Shown piece after piece: positions 9,283 through 42,739 of a DNA stretch of 64,000 nt. A model generated the notes under the pieces. It was given only the letters and a program-made list of their open reading frames with translations. It did not search any database and was not told the origin of the DNA. A program made the position numbers and the translations under genes. Source of the DNA: Natrinema hispanicum (lineage in GTDB: Archaea; Halobacteriota; Halobacteria; Halobacteriales; Natrialbaceae); NCBI RefSeq assembly GCF_004217335.1, contig NZ_SHMP01000006.1, positions 186,001 to 250,000 of the forward strand. Direction: 5' to 3'. The number at the start of each line of letters is the position of its first letter. Positions within the stretch are counted from its first letter, which is position 1.

Positions 9283-10479
9283 TCACGCCGTGGGGACTAC
9301 ACACTCGAGGGGCTCCATCTCGAAAAACGCCGTTTCGTACCCCTGATGGCGGACCAGTTGCGGCGGGGACTCGACTGTGATCGTCACCGAATCGCCCGGC
9401 TGGATATCCGTGAGTGAGTGCCCGTAATGGAAGCCGAGTTCACCGTCGAGCGTCCCGACGTGGCGCTGTCGGTCGACGACCGTCGAGCCGTCGCGGTCGA
9501 CAGTGGCCTGCAACGACATGTTCGAAAGTGGCACCCGGTTGTACGGTGTCCGCGGCGAGACGAGCAGATACCTGTCGTCGCCGTCGGCCAGTCGCGAGCC
9601 CGACTCGAGCAGCGAGACCACGAACACCGCGTCGCCGCTTCGTGGCAGGCCATCCCGTTGTTCGGGGTCGGCCTCACGTAACAGGGTGCCGGGATACGCA
9701 TCGGCAGATGGAAGTACGGAGTACGGTATCTCGGAGTGCCTCCCACTATCTCCGTCACCACCGTGTGTCATCGGCTCGAGCGCGCCGCGTTCGCCCCACC
9801 GTTCCCGTTCGAGCAGTTCGATCCCGTCGACGACGGCTTCTCGGAACGCCGAGTCGTACGTAAACTCGAACGTTGCGGTCGCGCCGTCGTCGAACCGTCC
9901 CGCGAGCGCGCCGGTTCGCCGCGTCGTAACCGGTGGCAGATCGACACGCACGGTGTAGGTGCCGTCGGCCGGCAGCGTGACGTTGTCGCCAAAGTGGAGT
10001 CCCATCTCCTGGGAGAGCATCGGCCACAGCGACAGGCGTCGCTGCCAACCGTCGTCGCCCTCGAGCGTGGCCTGCGGACTGATATCGACCGGAAGCACAT
10101 GTCCCGTCACGGCGTCCCAGACGACGAGCATCAGGTGGACGCCGCGACCGGCTTCCGGTTCGACGAGCTGGCGCTCGGTTCCAGTGACGAGCCAGAACGG
10201 ATGCGGGTACGTGACCATCGGTGCCAGTCTGTAGTCACCGGCGGCGACTGGCTCGAGCATCCGCATCGATTTCCGGTGCCCGGGGAGATACACGGCGTCC
10301 GGCGGGTCCTCGAGCATCGGGATCGGCGCGGTTCCCGTAACGTTCCCGCCGCTTCCGGCCCCACTATCGCTTTCACTTTCGTTCCGATCGTCGGTACCAT
10401 CCTCCGGAGCCCCACAGCCTGCGAGGGAAATTGCAGCCGGAAGCGGGGCCGTCCGATGGAGGAACTTCCGTCGGTTCAT
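9283..10479 (-). CDS. Tat lipoprotein, Tp34/iron-transport-like domains
   Basis: The ATG at 10479 gives MNRRKFLHRTAPLPAAISLAGC, a twin-arginine signal (RRKF) ending in a lipobox with Cys22. The mature 376-residue protein would be anchored outside the membrane. After a low-complexity S/E/G linker, residues of the form MGLHFGDNVTLPADGTYTVR resemble the Cu/Fe-binding P19/Tp34 family. A second similar piece (GFHYGHSLTDIQPGDSVT) occurs near the C-terminus, so two related domains are likely. I recall haloarchaeal proteins of this kind being annotated DUF7350 or iron transport. The function is not established. It sits inside the men cluster, between menB and menA. Confidence 0.7.
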   Translation of the reverse strand: MNRRKFLHRTAPLPAAISLAGCGAPEDGTDDRNESESDSGAGSGGNVTGTAPIPMLEDPPDAVYLPGHRKSMRMLEPVAAGDYRLAPMVTYPHPFWLVTGTERQLVEPEAGRGVHLMLVVWDAVTGHVLPVDISPQATLEGDDGWQRRLSLWPMLSQEMGLHFGDNVTLPADGTYTVRVDLPPVTTRRTGALAGRFDDGATATFEFTYDSAFREAVVDGIELLERERWGERGALEPMTHGGDGDSGRHSEIPYSVLPSADAYPGTLLREADPEQRDGLPRSGDAVFVVSLLESGSRLADGDDRYLLVSPRTPYNRVPLSNMSLQATVDRDGSTVVDRQRHVGTLDGELGFHYGHSLTDIQPGDSVTITVESPPQLVRHQGYETAFFEMEPLECVVPTA

Positions 10480-38996: not shown

Positions 38997-40046
38997 TCAG
39001 CACCGAGTGACAGTGTAAATCGACTCGAGATAGGTCTCCCGGACACGATCACCCCAGTTGTGTGTGTAGGTATCGATCACGTCGCCGGCGACGTCACCCC
39101 GGAGATACTGGACGATCCCCCGATCCCCGGTTCGATCCCGCAGATGTGTCGTGAAGAAGTGCCGGAAGTAGTGTGGTGTGACGTTCTCCTGGGTCCCCCC
39201 ACCGGTGCGATACCAGCCGTGATCGCGGGCGTGTTTCTCGACGATATAGCGGACGTCCGACGGCGTGAGCCGCTCGCCCCACGCGTCGCGGGTATCGAGA
39301 AAGAGCGGCCGTGCCGACGACACCGCGTCCGGGCGAATCGCCAGCCACTCACAGATCACCTGCCGGAGTTCGTCGTCGACGGGGACGACTGTATCCCGTT
39401 TCCGTTTGTTCGAGGCTGTCCGTTCCTCGCCGTTGACGGTCTCACCGCGGGCCGGCTCGGCCGAGACGAACACCGATTTGGGGCGTCGCTCGAGGCCGAC
39501 GCGGGGCGTCCACGTGAGGTCGAGTGCCGGCGTCTCGAGGTGCAGGTCGCGCAGATCGAGGTTGCAGAGCTCGCCAACGCGCATCCCCGTTTTGAGGAGT
39601 GTGACGACGGCGGCTCGCTCGAGAGGGTGGGCGATTTCGGCGACGAACGACTGCATTTCCGGCACCGAGATATCGCGTCGCGTCGGGTTCGTCTCGATCG
39701 ATTCGGACAGTTCCTCCATGACGAGTGCCATCGGGTTGTCGTCGAAGACGCCGACGCGGGTCATGTAGTCGTAGAACCGATTGAGATAGGACGCGTACGT
39801 CGCGATCGTGCTGTCTTCGAACTCGTCGCGCAGCGAATGGACCCAGGCCATACACTCCCGGCGTTGGGCCGTGCCGACCGCGTCGACGTCGAAGCGCTCG
39901 CGAAGGAAAGCCTCGAATCGCCGCAGCACTCGCTCGTAGGCTGCAAGCGTCCGTTCGCTCTTGCCGTGATAGCGCTGGTCATCGAGGAAGTATGCGATTG
40001 GATCCGTTACATCCGCCGGCGCGTTGCCGGTCGGTTCAGTCGCCAT
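38997..40046 (-). CDS. XerC-like tyrosine recombinase A
   Basis: This 349-residue recombinase has an N-terminal SAM-like core-binding domain (residues 14-110) and a catalytic domain. Active-site residues are Arg156 in KTGMRVGEL, the Lys region SNKRKRD, His292 and Arg295 in PHYFRHF, and Tyr327 in DTYTHNW. The position normally held by His in LGH reads LRGD. The ATG at 40046 overlaps the end of the truncated regulator gene upstream by 11 bp. Its catalytic domain is strikingly similar to recombinase B, including TGGG..ENVTPHYFRHFFTT. It probably integrates or inverts a nearby element. Confidence 0.85.
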   Translation of the reverse strand: MATEPTGNAPADVTDPIAYFLDDQRYHGKSERTLAAYERVLRRFEAFLRERFDVDAVGTAQRRECMAWVHSLRDEFEDSTIATYASYLNRFYDYMTRVGVFDDNPMALVMEELSESIETNPTRRDISVPEMQSFVAEIAHPLERAAVVTLLKTGMRVGELCNLDLRDLHLETPALDLTWTPRVGLERRPKSVFVSAEPARGETVNGEERTASNKRKRDTVVPVDDELRQVICEWLAIRPDAVSSARPLFLDTRDAWGERLTPSDVRYIVEKHARDHGWYRTGGGTQENVTPHYFRHFFTTHLRDRTGDRGIVQYLRGDVAGDVIDTYTHNWGDRVRETYLESIYTVTRC

Positions 40047-40260
40047 CGCCACCACCGTCGACGGTCGTGTATCCGCCATGGCGTCCGCTGTATCGAATCC
40101 GGTTGGTCGCCTGTAGCTCCTCGAGTGTCTCGTCCAGTCGTGACTCGATGTCATCTGAGACCGCCTCGAGTAGTTCGTCCCACGAATACGTGTCAGAAGA
40201 GAGTAATTCGAGGACCTGTCTTTCGAGGCCGTTACCCCCAGGGTCTGGGTCCGAGAAATA
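40036..40260 (-). pseudogene. Truncated regulator gene (wHTH half only)
   Basis: The minus strand encodes LERQVLELLSSDTYSWDELL, then IESRLDETLEELQATNRIRY and SGRHGGYTTVDGGG before TGA at 40036-40038. This matches the C-terminal winged-helix half of the intact regulator at 40495. Upstream the frame meets a TAA in the AT-rich gap and there is no Met. The ribbon-helix-helix half is absent. The stop lies inside the first codons of recombinase A, the same coupling as in module B. It is therefore a degraded copy or an unannotated wHTH-only peptide. Confidence 0.65.
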
Positions 40261-40314
40261 ATATAATATTTATAACAAATTTTGACGCCGGTTATTCGTC
40301 TATAGAACTGAGTC

Positions 40315-40355
40315 GTACCAAAGATGTTCGAAATAATTATTTGGTATTTTGGTAC
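40315..40355. repeat. GTACCAAA/TTTGGTAC inverted repeat
   Basis: GTACCAAA (40315-40322) is complemented exactly by TTTGGTAC (40348-40355), with a 25-bp AT-rich spacer that also holds an internal TTTGGT. The total of 41 bp is close to the size of a recombinase core site, but no function is shown. Confidence 0.4.
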
Positions 40356-40419
40356 TGTTTAGGAGTGGCTAGAGGACTACAGATACAAATAAGAAAAATA
40401 GATCACGGTGATTACGACA

Positions 40420-40457
40420 CTACATCCACAAATAAACATCCTTATTTGTGAATGTAG
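40420..40457. repeat. 16-bp inverted repeat upstream of module B
   Basis: Arms CTACATCCACAAATAA (40420-40435) and TTATTTGTGAATGTAG (40442-40457) pair at 15 of 16 positions around a 6-bp spacer. The repeat ends 37 bp before the regulator ATG, just upstream of the likely TATA box. That is a natural place for autoregulation by the ribbon-helix-helix protein. Confidence 0.65.
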
Positions 40458-40494: not shown

Positions 40495-40884
40495 ATGGCT
40501 ACTGACGACCGAACTACCGTGAAAACCTACGTTCCTCGGTATCAAAAAGAGAAATGGACCGAACACGCTGATAAACTCGAGATGAGCCAAAGCGAGTTCG
40601 TTCGAACGATGGTACAGGCCGGTCGCTGTGATTTCGATGTTCCTTCAATAGACAGTCGTGTTGTCGATGCTGATGAGTCGCCGGAGTCGAACGACGACGA
40701 TTTTCGGGAACGAATTCTCGCTTTACTTGATCGAGAGGATGTTTTGGACTGGGATGAGCTCATTGAGCACCTTATTGACGACATAGAAGACGACGTTGAT
40801 GCAGCATTAGGACAGCTCCAAGACGATAATCTCGTCCGATACAGTGGCCGTGAGGGAGGATACATCCGGACCAGCAATGAGTGA
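40495..40884 (+). CDS. Ribbon-helix-helix plus winged-helix regulator
   Basis: This 129-residue protein has an N-terminal RHH domain (TVKTYVPRYQKEKWTEHADK, then EMSQSEFVRTMVQAG). After an acidic linker follows a C-terminal winged helix (RERILALLDREDVLDWDELI..LGQLQDDNLVRYSGREGGYI). I recall such proteins labelled DUF5805 in haloarchaea, often next to integrases. Its stop overlaps the recombinase B start (ATGAGTGA), so the two are translationally coupled. It could be an accessory directionality factor or a repressor. The 16-bp inverted repeat just upstream is a likely binding site. Confidence 0.72.
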   Translation: MATDDRTTVKTYVPRYQKEKWTEHADKLEMSQSEFVRTMVQAGRCDFDVPSIDSRVVDADESPESNDDDFRERILALLDREDVLDWDELIEHLIDDIEDDVDAALGQLQDDNLVRYSGREGGYIRTSNE

Positions 40885-41884
40885 CCGATCAGAGTCGATC
40901 GACTACTTTCTCGAGGATATCAAGCAGCACGGCCGTAATGAACGAACTGTTTCGGCATATCAGCGCGTCTTATCTAAATTCGAGGGCTTCCTCTCCGAAC
41001 GGTTCGGGAAAACTCCGACAGAAGCCGGATATCGGGATTGTATGGCGTTCACACATGAACTTCGTTCGCAGTATGCAGAAAGTACAGTGGCAAGTTACGC
41101 TTCTTACTTGAATCGATTTTACGGATATCTCGTTCGTGTTGGACGACACAACGAAAACCCGATGGAACTTGTTTTAGAGGAAATGAACGAGTCGATCGAG
41201 TCGAATCCGTCCCGTCGTGATATTCAGCTTGCAGATATGCGTGACTTCGTTACAACCGTTCGGCATCCACTCCACCGGGCGGTCATATTAATATTATTGA
41301 AAACAGGGATTCGGTCTGGTGAGTTGTGTAATCTTGATTTGATTGATTTGAATCTCGCTCACGAAGCCGCCGACTGGCATCCTCGGGCCCAGATCAACGG
41401 TAAATCAAGTTCGATTTATATTTCACCAGAACATTCATATGGTAAAGAGTCCGGAGGAGCAGTGCGAACGGCTTCAAACAAGCGTAAGCGTGAGACGATC
41501 ATCCCCGTCGATAGCGAACTTGAGGACGCACTCATTCGCTGGCTCGCCATTCGACCGAATTCGGCCTCTAAAACCGAACCGCTGTTCGTCGGAACTGTCG
41601 ACCGATGGGGAAAGCGGATTACCATAGATTCGGTCCACCACATTGTGGAGCAATACGCAACAGAGCATGGTTGGTATCGAACCGGTGGAGGTGCAACAGA
41701 GAACGTCACACCACACTACTTCCGGCACTTCTTCACGACGCATCTACGGGATCGAACTGGTGACCGTGGCGTTGTAAAATACCTCCGTGGCGACGTTGCG
41801 AGCGATATCATCGATACGTATACACACAATTGGGGAGACCGTGTCCGAGAGACATATCTTGAGAATGTTTATTCACTCGTATGA
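40877..41884 (+). CDS. XerC-like tyrosine recombinase B
   Basis: This 335-residue recombinase begins MSDRSESIDYFLEDIKQHGR. A core-binding domain (residues 5-100) precedes the catalytic domain with Arg146 (KTGIRSGEL), Lys region NKRKRE, His280 and Arg283 (PHYFRHF) and Tyr315 (DTYTHNW). As in recombinase A, the third-box His is replaced (LRGD). Codon use is AT-richer than in A (for example more GAA/TTT), so the copies have different histories or ages. It is coupled to the regulator upstream. A convergent HNH fusion gene ends 3 bp away. Confidence 0.85.
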   Translation: MSDRSESIDYFLEDIKQHGRNERTVSAYQRVLSKFEGFLSERFGKTPTEAGYRDCMAFTHELRSQYAESTVASYASYLNRFYGYLVRVGRHNENPMELVLEEMNESIESNPSRRDIQLADMRDFVTTVRHPLHRAVILILLKTGIRSGELCNLDLIDLNLAHEAADWHPRAQINGKSSSIYISPEHSYGKESGGAVRTASNKRKRETIIPVDSELEDALIRWLAIRPNSASKTEPLFVGTVDRWGKRITIDSVHHIVEQYATEHGWYRTGGGATENVTPHYFRHFFTTHLRDRTGDRGVVKYLRGDVASDIIDTYTHNWGDRVRETYLENVYSLV

Positions 41885-41887
41885 CAA

Positions 41888-42739
41888 TTACCCGAAAATT
41901 TTTAATATGTTGTTCCTGTAATCATCTTCAAATGACGAAACGTCGATATCCGACCTCGTTCGTCGACCGAGGATGTACTCACGATGGGCTGGCCGGCCAC
42001 CAAATCGCTCTTTGAAAAAATATCGTAAGGAAACCGGTGTCAGATTTTCCATCTCGTTATTTTCGGAATATAACCCATGATCTCGGCCTATTTTCTCAAA
42101 CACGTATCGAACCGTGGATGGATCAATTCGTTCGCCCCATTTCTCTTTCGTTTTTACGAATAGCGAATCGGTGTCAGGATGATCCGGCCGAATTGCTAAC
42201 CACCTCAATAAAACGTGTTCCAGTTCAGAATCAACTGGGATCACGGTGCTCTCACGTCTCTCACGACGATTATTATATGGAATGTCACCGCCGTATCGTA
42301 TCTGTAGGCCGGGTCCAGACAGTTCTGGGAGAGTGTTACTACTATCATTTTTGAGAGTAACATCCTGAAGATCAAGGTTACAGATCTCACCGACTCCAAT
42401 TCCAGTTTTTATAATAATAACAATGAGTGCAAGATGAAGCGGGTGATGAGTTGACCGGCAAACGGTCGAAATTGTACCTTCGGTGAAGATTTTTCGTGAA
42501 GGGAGTTCTGAAGATGATCCGTTCTCTATTCCCGATCGGTGATTATGTGCGGCTCGATGGCATTGTCGGCAAAGGGTAACCAGATTCGTCAGTTGATTCG
42601 TTCCGTGATTGCTGATAGGGACGATATGGTGAACGACTAAATTACTTTCTTCCGCACAGTTGCGACATTGCCAGTCATCACGTTCCATCACTTGTTCACG
42701 GATCTTGAACCATTCGTGTCCGCGAATTCGCTCACCCAT
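41888..42739 (-). CDS. HNH nuclease fused to a degenerate tyrosine-recombinase domain
   Basis: The 283-residue protein has an HNH domain at residues 8-67: CRNC (Cys25, Cys28), VVHHIVPIS (His37, His38), NLVTLCRQC (Cys57, Cys60) and HRAAH, all intact. After a Ser-rich linker, residues 97-283 align with the catalytic domain of recombinases A and B (KTGIGVGEICNLDL, TVIPVDSELEHVLLRWLAIRP). The active-site Arg is Gly115, the HxxR His is Val236 and the Tyr position is Ser269/Phe270. Only Arg239 remains. The core-binding domain is replaced by the HNH. AT-rich codon use fits the island. The role is unknown. Confidence 0.75.
   Translation of the reverse strand: MGERIRGHEWFKIREQVMERDDWQCRNCAEESNLVVHHIVPISNHGTNQLTNLVTLCRQCHRAAHNHRSGIENGSSSELPSRKIFTEGTISTVCRSTHHPLHLALIVIIIKTGIGVGEICNLDLQDVTLKNDSSNTLPELSGPGLQIRYGGDIPYNNRRERRESTVIPVDSELEHVLLRWLAIRPDHPDTDSLFVKTKEKWGERIDPSTVRYVFEKIGRDHGLYSENNEMENLTPVSLRYFFKERFGGRPAHREYILGRRTRSDIDVSSFEDDYRNNILKIFG

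Follow-up and report, generated by a model that had tools for sequence, protein, structure and literature searches.

FUS, an HNH nuclease domain fused to an inactive Xer-like recombinase domain in haloarchaea, a candidate homing nuclease of the xer/dif locus

HNH homing endonucleases are well known. Among the tyrosine recombinases, TnsF of the Tn6022-like transposons has been described as an inactivated member serving as a targeting module (PMC10293859). In archaea, XerA and its dif site have been described (PMC2958812, PMC3646895), and recombination by XerA was shown to be abolished by the R135A and by the Y261F exchange, each alone (PMC3646895). For Haloferax volcanii, a review reports several Xer homologues and leaves their role open (PMC7776575). 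A fusion of an HNH domain with a tyrosine recombinase of the dead Xer type is not described in the open-access literature searched, which leaves out most subscription journals, and the domain DUF5805, which recurs at the locus presented here, is not mentioned in it. A sequence-only reading of this locus had stated that no protein of the type was known, and no contrary report was found in the same literature.

This paper concerns a gene, here named FUS, and its neighbours in the window, by which is meant the whole 64,000-nucleotide stretch of Natrinema hispanicum DNA that was analysed (Table 1).

Table 1. Coordinates of FUS and of the adjacent features, given as positions in the window
Feature	Position	Strand	Description
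FUS	41888..42739	minus	ATG start, 283 aa; fusion of an HNH domain and an inactive tyrosine-recombinase catalytic domain
HNH nuclease domain of FUS	42539..42718	minus	residues 8-67; all ligands present
Xer-like catalytic domain of FUS	41891..42451	minus	residues 97-283; without the RI Arg (Gly115), the HxxR His (Val236) and the catalytic Tyr
Recombinase B (RecB)	40877..41884	plus	Xer-like tyrosine recombinase, intact; belongs to the incoming cassette and is oriented convergently to FUS
RHH_B	40495..40884	plus	RHH-type N-terminus (weak NikA-like match) and DUF5805; overlaps the start of RecB
Cassette dif-like site	40427..40450	no strand	CACAAATAA-ACATCC-TTATTTGTG
Truncated resident RHH_A	40044..40254	minus	DUF5805 half only; homology to cassette-free relatives ends at ~40254
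Recombinase A (RecA)	38997..40154	minus	resident core Xer-like recombinase; likely true start ~40043

Domain composition of FUS and loss of the recombinase active site

Two Pfam domains were identified in FUS above the curated cut-offs, HNH (PF01844) at residues 25-66 with an E-value of 1.3e-10 and Phage_integrase (PF00589) at residues 98-239 with an E-value of 2.2e-8. A SAM-like core-binding domain was not detected by Pfam in FUS, whereas recombinases A and B alongside contain both integrase domains; the HNH domain is located where the core-binding domain of an Xer-type recombinase would be. The HNH ligands are C25, C28, H37, H38, N52, C57, C60 and H61, and with its catalytic His/Asn and paired CxxC FUS meets the profile criterion of the HNH endonuclease superfamily. 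Metal-dependent DNA cleavage is inferred, biochemical data being absent. The closest solved HNH domains are those of EcoKMcrA and IscB (6ghc, 9nvu). The gene has a GC content of 45% compared to 62% for the window, and an AlphaFold2 model of the protein, based on only three sequences, reached a mean pLDDT of 43, too low for the model to be of use.

In a profile alignment to the solved XerA (4a8e), Gly115 of FUS occupies the position of R135, the 'RI' arginine, in a motif reading TGIG in FUS compared to TGIR/TGMR in the two neighbouring recombinases. Val236 takes the position of H226, and R239 of the HxxR motif is kept. In the column of the catalytic Tyr, FUS contains Ser268, followed by a gap of six residues; Tyr274, which is invariant, is part of a later 'ETYLESIY' motif and is not the catalytic residue. 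The active neighbouring recombinases retain R145, H279, R282 and Y314 (RecB numbering, counted from window base 40880). FUS fails both criteria for an active tyrosine recombinase or XerA, namely the R...HxxR...Y residues and the N-terminal core-binding domain, and because either exchange described above abolishes recombination by XerA, the recombinase domain of FUS should be unable to recombine.

The sequence-only reading had claimed an intact HNH domain at residues 8-67 with paired CxxC, HH, N and H, the exchange of the Arg to Gly115 and of the HxxR His to Val236, and the absence of a SAM-like core-binding domain. All three claims held, on the basis of the Pfam match and the ligands, the alignment to 4a8e, and Pfam, respectively. 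Its assignment of the lost Tyr to Ser269 or Phe270 held only in part, since the Tyr is lost but the position aligns to Ser268. Its reservation that the HNH half might be unrelated to nucleases was not borne out, given the PF01844 match.

Conservation and distribution of FUS

FUS was searched in 149 relatives and in 391 genomes of the class, with additional searches for relics at the core loci. Eighteen loci were identified, all of them haloarchaeal. Nine are apparently intact (the window, L025, L026, L027, L028, L029 with an unclear start codon, L030, L031 and L077) and nine are broken or relics (L032, L033, L063, L073, L078, L079, L080, L092 and L093). These counts describe genome samples and are no census, and intact or broken was judged by the reading frame only. 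To look beyond the class, 295 genomes from across the phylum were searched at E 1e-50; the window genome and a second haloarchaeal carrier were the only matches. In viral_contigs, the FUS alignment identified a single HNH-only relative and recombinase B gave no match, and no record in the phage and plasmid collections contains the complete fusion, the matches there being limited to HNH or integrase parts.

The fused open reading frame is not a product of chance, because other genomes contain it in full length, with identities between 77 and 34%. Eight intact proteins were aligned, namely the window copy and seven others with 34-77% identity to it; the HNH ligands, Gly115 and the missing Tyr are invariant among them. 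Comparison of the window copy to L025, its nearest relative, gave an overall dN/dS of 0.14, with 0.26 for the HNH half and 0.10 for the recombinase half, and both halves are under purifying selection. In the tree, the dead domains form one clade (support 100/99) on long branches, separate from the active recombinases, so that the FUS domain was not copied recently from its neighbours.

One explanation for such a gene is a decayed fusion or an assembly artefact, and about half of the copies elsewhere are indeed broken. However, the window copy is intact, the identical fusion is present in many independent assemblies, the lost residues are conserved along with the fusion in divergent homologues, and dN/dS is as low as given above. 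Both a decayed pseudogene and an assembly frameshift are ruled out for the window copy, and the explanation as a whole is all but excluded. With this, one of two options left by the sequence-only reading, the decayed fusion, failed for this copy, as did its concern about an assembly frameshift. The second option, a real nuclease using the recombinase fold only to bind DNA, is supported by conservation, selection and the single clade; DNA binding and cleavage are inferred.

The Xer-like core locus and its partial replacement by the FUS cassette

The recombinase half of FUS is strongly matched in 387 of the 391 class genomes, mostly by the active core recombinase. In the core loci read, the gene in front of this recombinase usually encodes an RHH-type N-terminus together with DUF5805, and 38-62 bp upstream of the RHH gene an ATAA-N6-TTA dif-like palindrome was identified in 42 of 50 loci, compared to 0.2 expected from shuffles. 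The neighbouring genes meet the Xer/dif criterion of inverted arms, a 6-bp spacer and a position near an xer gene. RHH-DUF5805, the Xer-like recombinase and the linked site together constitute a putative haloarchaeal Xer/dif system. The core recombinases are similar to archaeal XerA, yet they remain under the family cut-off (113-115 bits for the neighbours, with a cut-off of 220 bits), and the system is therefore called Xer-like.

The dif-like site is probably in use, as judged from two genomes. In G001 (L067:8064-9667), an insert of 1.6 kb lies between hybrid dif halves with the common hexamer ACTCAC and is likely the product of site-specific integration into the site. In G025 (L069:8546-15001), other sequence has taken the place of the left half of the site, followed by plasmid/virus-like genes; this segment is likely an integrated element, the far end of which was not located.

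Fourteen of the 18 FUS loci are situated at this core locus, composed of the RHH-DUF5805 gene, the Xer-like recombinase and the upstream dif-like site. In the window, L025, L026, L027, L080 and L073 (here with a FUS relic), a low-GC unit of RHH_B and RecB followed by the convergent FUS adjoins the resident recombinase A. The layout of an HNH domain with a dead recombinase thus recurs beside active recombinases, and, beyond what the sequence-only reading had seen, the FUS gene belongs to a cassette replacing part of the core xer/dif locus. In cassette-free relatives the RHH_A-RecA operon is intact and a dif-like site is present. Carriers of the cassette have lost the initial half of RHH_A along with the resident dif-like site, which leaves recombinase A orphaned from its own RHH and dif-like site. 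The cassette site CACAAATAA-ACATCC-TTATTTGTG, the sole such site in the genome assembly, differs from the resident one.

Pairwise comparison placed the break points of window 40254 at L068:7461, of L026:9949 and L073:7360 both at L068:7457, of L025:9658 at L069:8285 and of L080:6228 at L094:5752. All five junctions are no more than ~10 bp away from a single RHH motif, GACCCTGGGGGTAAC, which is part of the linker joining the two domains of RHH_A; RHH_B is without this motif. As the sole target, GACCCTGGGGGTAAC was ruled out, because the whole motif persists in the RHH_A remnant of the window itself. That the cassette had entered the resident dif site by simple Xer-type integration was also rejected, since hybrid dif halves are absent on the FUS side of the cassette. 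Decay is found on the resident side, with a frameshift (L025) or a stop (L026) in the RHH_A remnant and with a decayed recombinase A in L027, L080 and L063. In G085, a B-type pair is present alone at the locus.

Some further observations were made on these sequences. At the L025 junction (L025:9640-9670), a second copy of GGGGGTAACGCnnTCGnAA stands inverted to the first, as fold-back repair of a break might leave it. One or two extra half-sites, similar to TTATTTGTG or CACAAATAA, are present at window positions 40255-40426 and in the matching segments of L025-L027, L073 and L080; lying upstream of the cassette dif-like site, they could be accessory sites. Two carriers with an apparently intact FUS (L028 and L029) have changes in the inner arms of the dif-like site, which is suggestive, the cases being too few to test.

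The recombinase A genes of the carriers are polyphyletic, requiring at least five changes, and monophyly is rejected with a p-AU of 8.3e-6. RecB of the window and of L025 are sisters in the tree, though the recombinase A genes of these two carriers come from separate clades. The flanks in G103 (L028) share 88-90% identity with those of relatives from the genus, and the FUS-linked recombinase falls outside the clade of these relatives. In Halorussus ruber (L063), FUS and a different recombinase were identified beside a resident locus with an RHH truncated at the matching place and a frameshifted recombinase. It is likely that the FUS cassette arrived repeatedly at one site, a part of which could also be explained by exchange of the whole locus between strains.

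Other settings of FUS have also been identified. Natrinema salsiterrestre contains an intact FUS behind a parA-like gene (L030:6726-8941) on a 56-kb plasmid/virus-like contig, off the core locus, and its core locus L081 is untouched. Salinadaptatus (L031) has an intact FUS alongside an RHH motif and a dif-like site that are likewise intact. In G156 (L077:7280-8579), FUS takes the place of the recombinase in an RHH-FUS operon beside the succinate dehydrogenase genes, and no recombinase adjoins it; further along, at 9942, there is a second small gene of the HNH type.

The neighbourhood of FUS allows for two further roles. As an accessory factor, FUS would be a dead subunit bridging or nicking the site during integration of a mobile unit by RecB and RHH. 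In favour of this, FUS is linked to an active recombinase and an RHH protein, the dead domain retains the fold and R239, and in another system the Tsy elements, a GIY-YIG nuclease gene downstream of the recombinase genes aids transposition (PMC10293859). However, most genomes have RHH-recombinase pairs without FUS, FUS is present without an adjacent recombinase in G027, G146 and G156, and the hybrid dif halves are missing on its side of the cassette; this role is considered unlikely. Still less probable is a non-catalytic regulator, which would bind the dif or promoter region of the RHH-recombinase pair and repress it, with the HNH domain as a zinc fold only. FUS adjoins the locus, and binding at a site upstream of RHH is plausible, but the catalytic HH, N and H, and not merely the Cys ligands, are invariant in all eight aligned intact homologues.

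FUS as a putative homing nuclease and comparison to known systems

The reading that we favour, at a probability of about 0.55, is that FUS is a homing-type nuclease which binds the xer/dif locus through its dead Xer fold, cuts alleles lacking the cassette and spreads by repair. The domain composition, the conserved loss of the active site, purifying selection, the position, the shared junctions, the polyphyly of the carriers and the decay are shown; binding, cutting, the exact target and spread by break repair are inferred. According to this proposal, the Xer catalytic domain, with its chemistry removed, would serve only for DNA recognition at the haloarchaeal xer/dif locus, the recognised target being the dif-like site and/or the adjacent RHH gene. 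FUS would cut core-locus alleles without the cassette at or near these sequences, and repair from a cassette-bearing copy would install FUS, here together with RHH_B, RecB and a different dif-like site. The carrier would be immune through loss of the resident dif-like site and the 5' half of RHH, and through the diverged site of the cassette itself. RecB could then take over, and the resident recombinase, and later FUS, would decay.

Three criteria for homing are met. Insertion at a defined site with alleles intact in relatives is given by the common junction in RHH_A; mobility independent of the host phylogeny follows from the rejected monophyly, with whole-locus exchange not fully excluded; and a cycle of gain, decay and loss is seen in the nine of 18 copies that are broken or relics. 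Cleavage of the empty allele and resistance of the occupied one are inferred without cleavage data. Against homing, the shared junctions could possibly mark the end of homology between RHH_A and RHH_B and not a cut site, and ordinary whole-locus exchange may account for part of the incongruence between RecA and RecB. Further, the subclade of L030, L031 and L077 coexists with intact motifs or is located elsewhere. Because an intact FUS coexists there with an intact motif and dif-like site, either the target of the L030/L031 subclade is a different one or the model falls short.

A possible alternative is a nuclease of competition or defence, which would find, via the dead Xer fold, and cut the dif-like sites of rival elements integrating at the core dif, its location reflecting linkage to the Xer module and not homing. 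Elements do use the dif site, as shown by the hybrid halves in G001 and the replaced half in G025, HNH domains are common in defence proteins, with weak matches to DpdF, ZorE and McrA, and one FUS is located on a plasmid/virus-like contig. However, no PADLOC model covers FUS, the matches are confined to the HNH part, and defence predicts neither the recurrent loss, at a single junction, of the resident dif-like site together with half of RHH nor the linkage to a replacement recombinase.

A bolder form of the homing proposal, to which we give slightly less than even odds, is that a recombinase-guided homing nuclease attacks the xer/dif locus of the cell itself and, across haloarchaea, forces a near-universal chromosomal recombinase to be replaced repeatedly, together with its site. 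If true, FUS would represent a naturally evolved nuclease that takes its DNA recognition from a disarmed site-specific recombinase, and a selfish nuclease driving the turnover of a core chromosome-maintenance gene. The study of FUS also exposes the putative haloarchaeal Xer/dif locus.

In comparison to known systems, the HNH domains of EcoKMcrA and IscB are related to FUS, which is without their parts for 5-methylcytosine recognition or RNA guidance. Archaeal XerA provides the parent fold of the C-terminal domain, and the recombinases next to FUS, with their linked dif-like site of 11+6+11 layout, are similar to XerA/dif, but the residues equivalent to R135 and Y261 are absent from FUS. Genes for Tn7-type transposition were not seen in the open reading frame lists of the window, L030, L032 and L077. 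TnsF and FUS share a tyrosine-recombinase fold with a lost active site that is kept for target recognition, which for FUS is inferred; TnsF carries core-binding domains as well as zinc fingers and guides a Tn7-type transposase, whereas FUS has its own HNH domain and no core-binding domain. Free-standing HNH homing endonucleases, known from phages and intronless homing, are like FUS small, patchily distributed and often broken HNH genes, found at the edges of replaced segments and linked to the replacement of a resident locus. FUS differs from them in that recognition would rest on a dead Xer recombinase and not on the small DNA-binding modules that are usual in them, and in that it is located at an archaeal chromosomal xer/dif locus and travels with a replacement recombinase.
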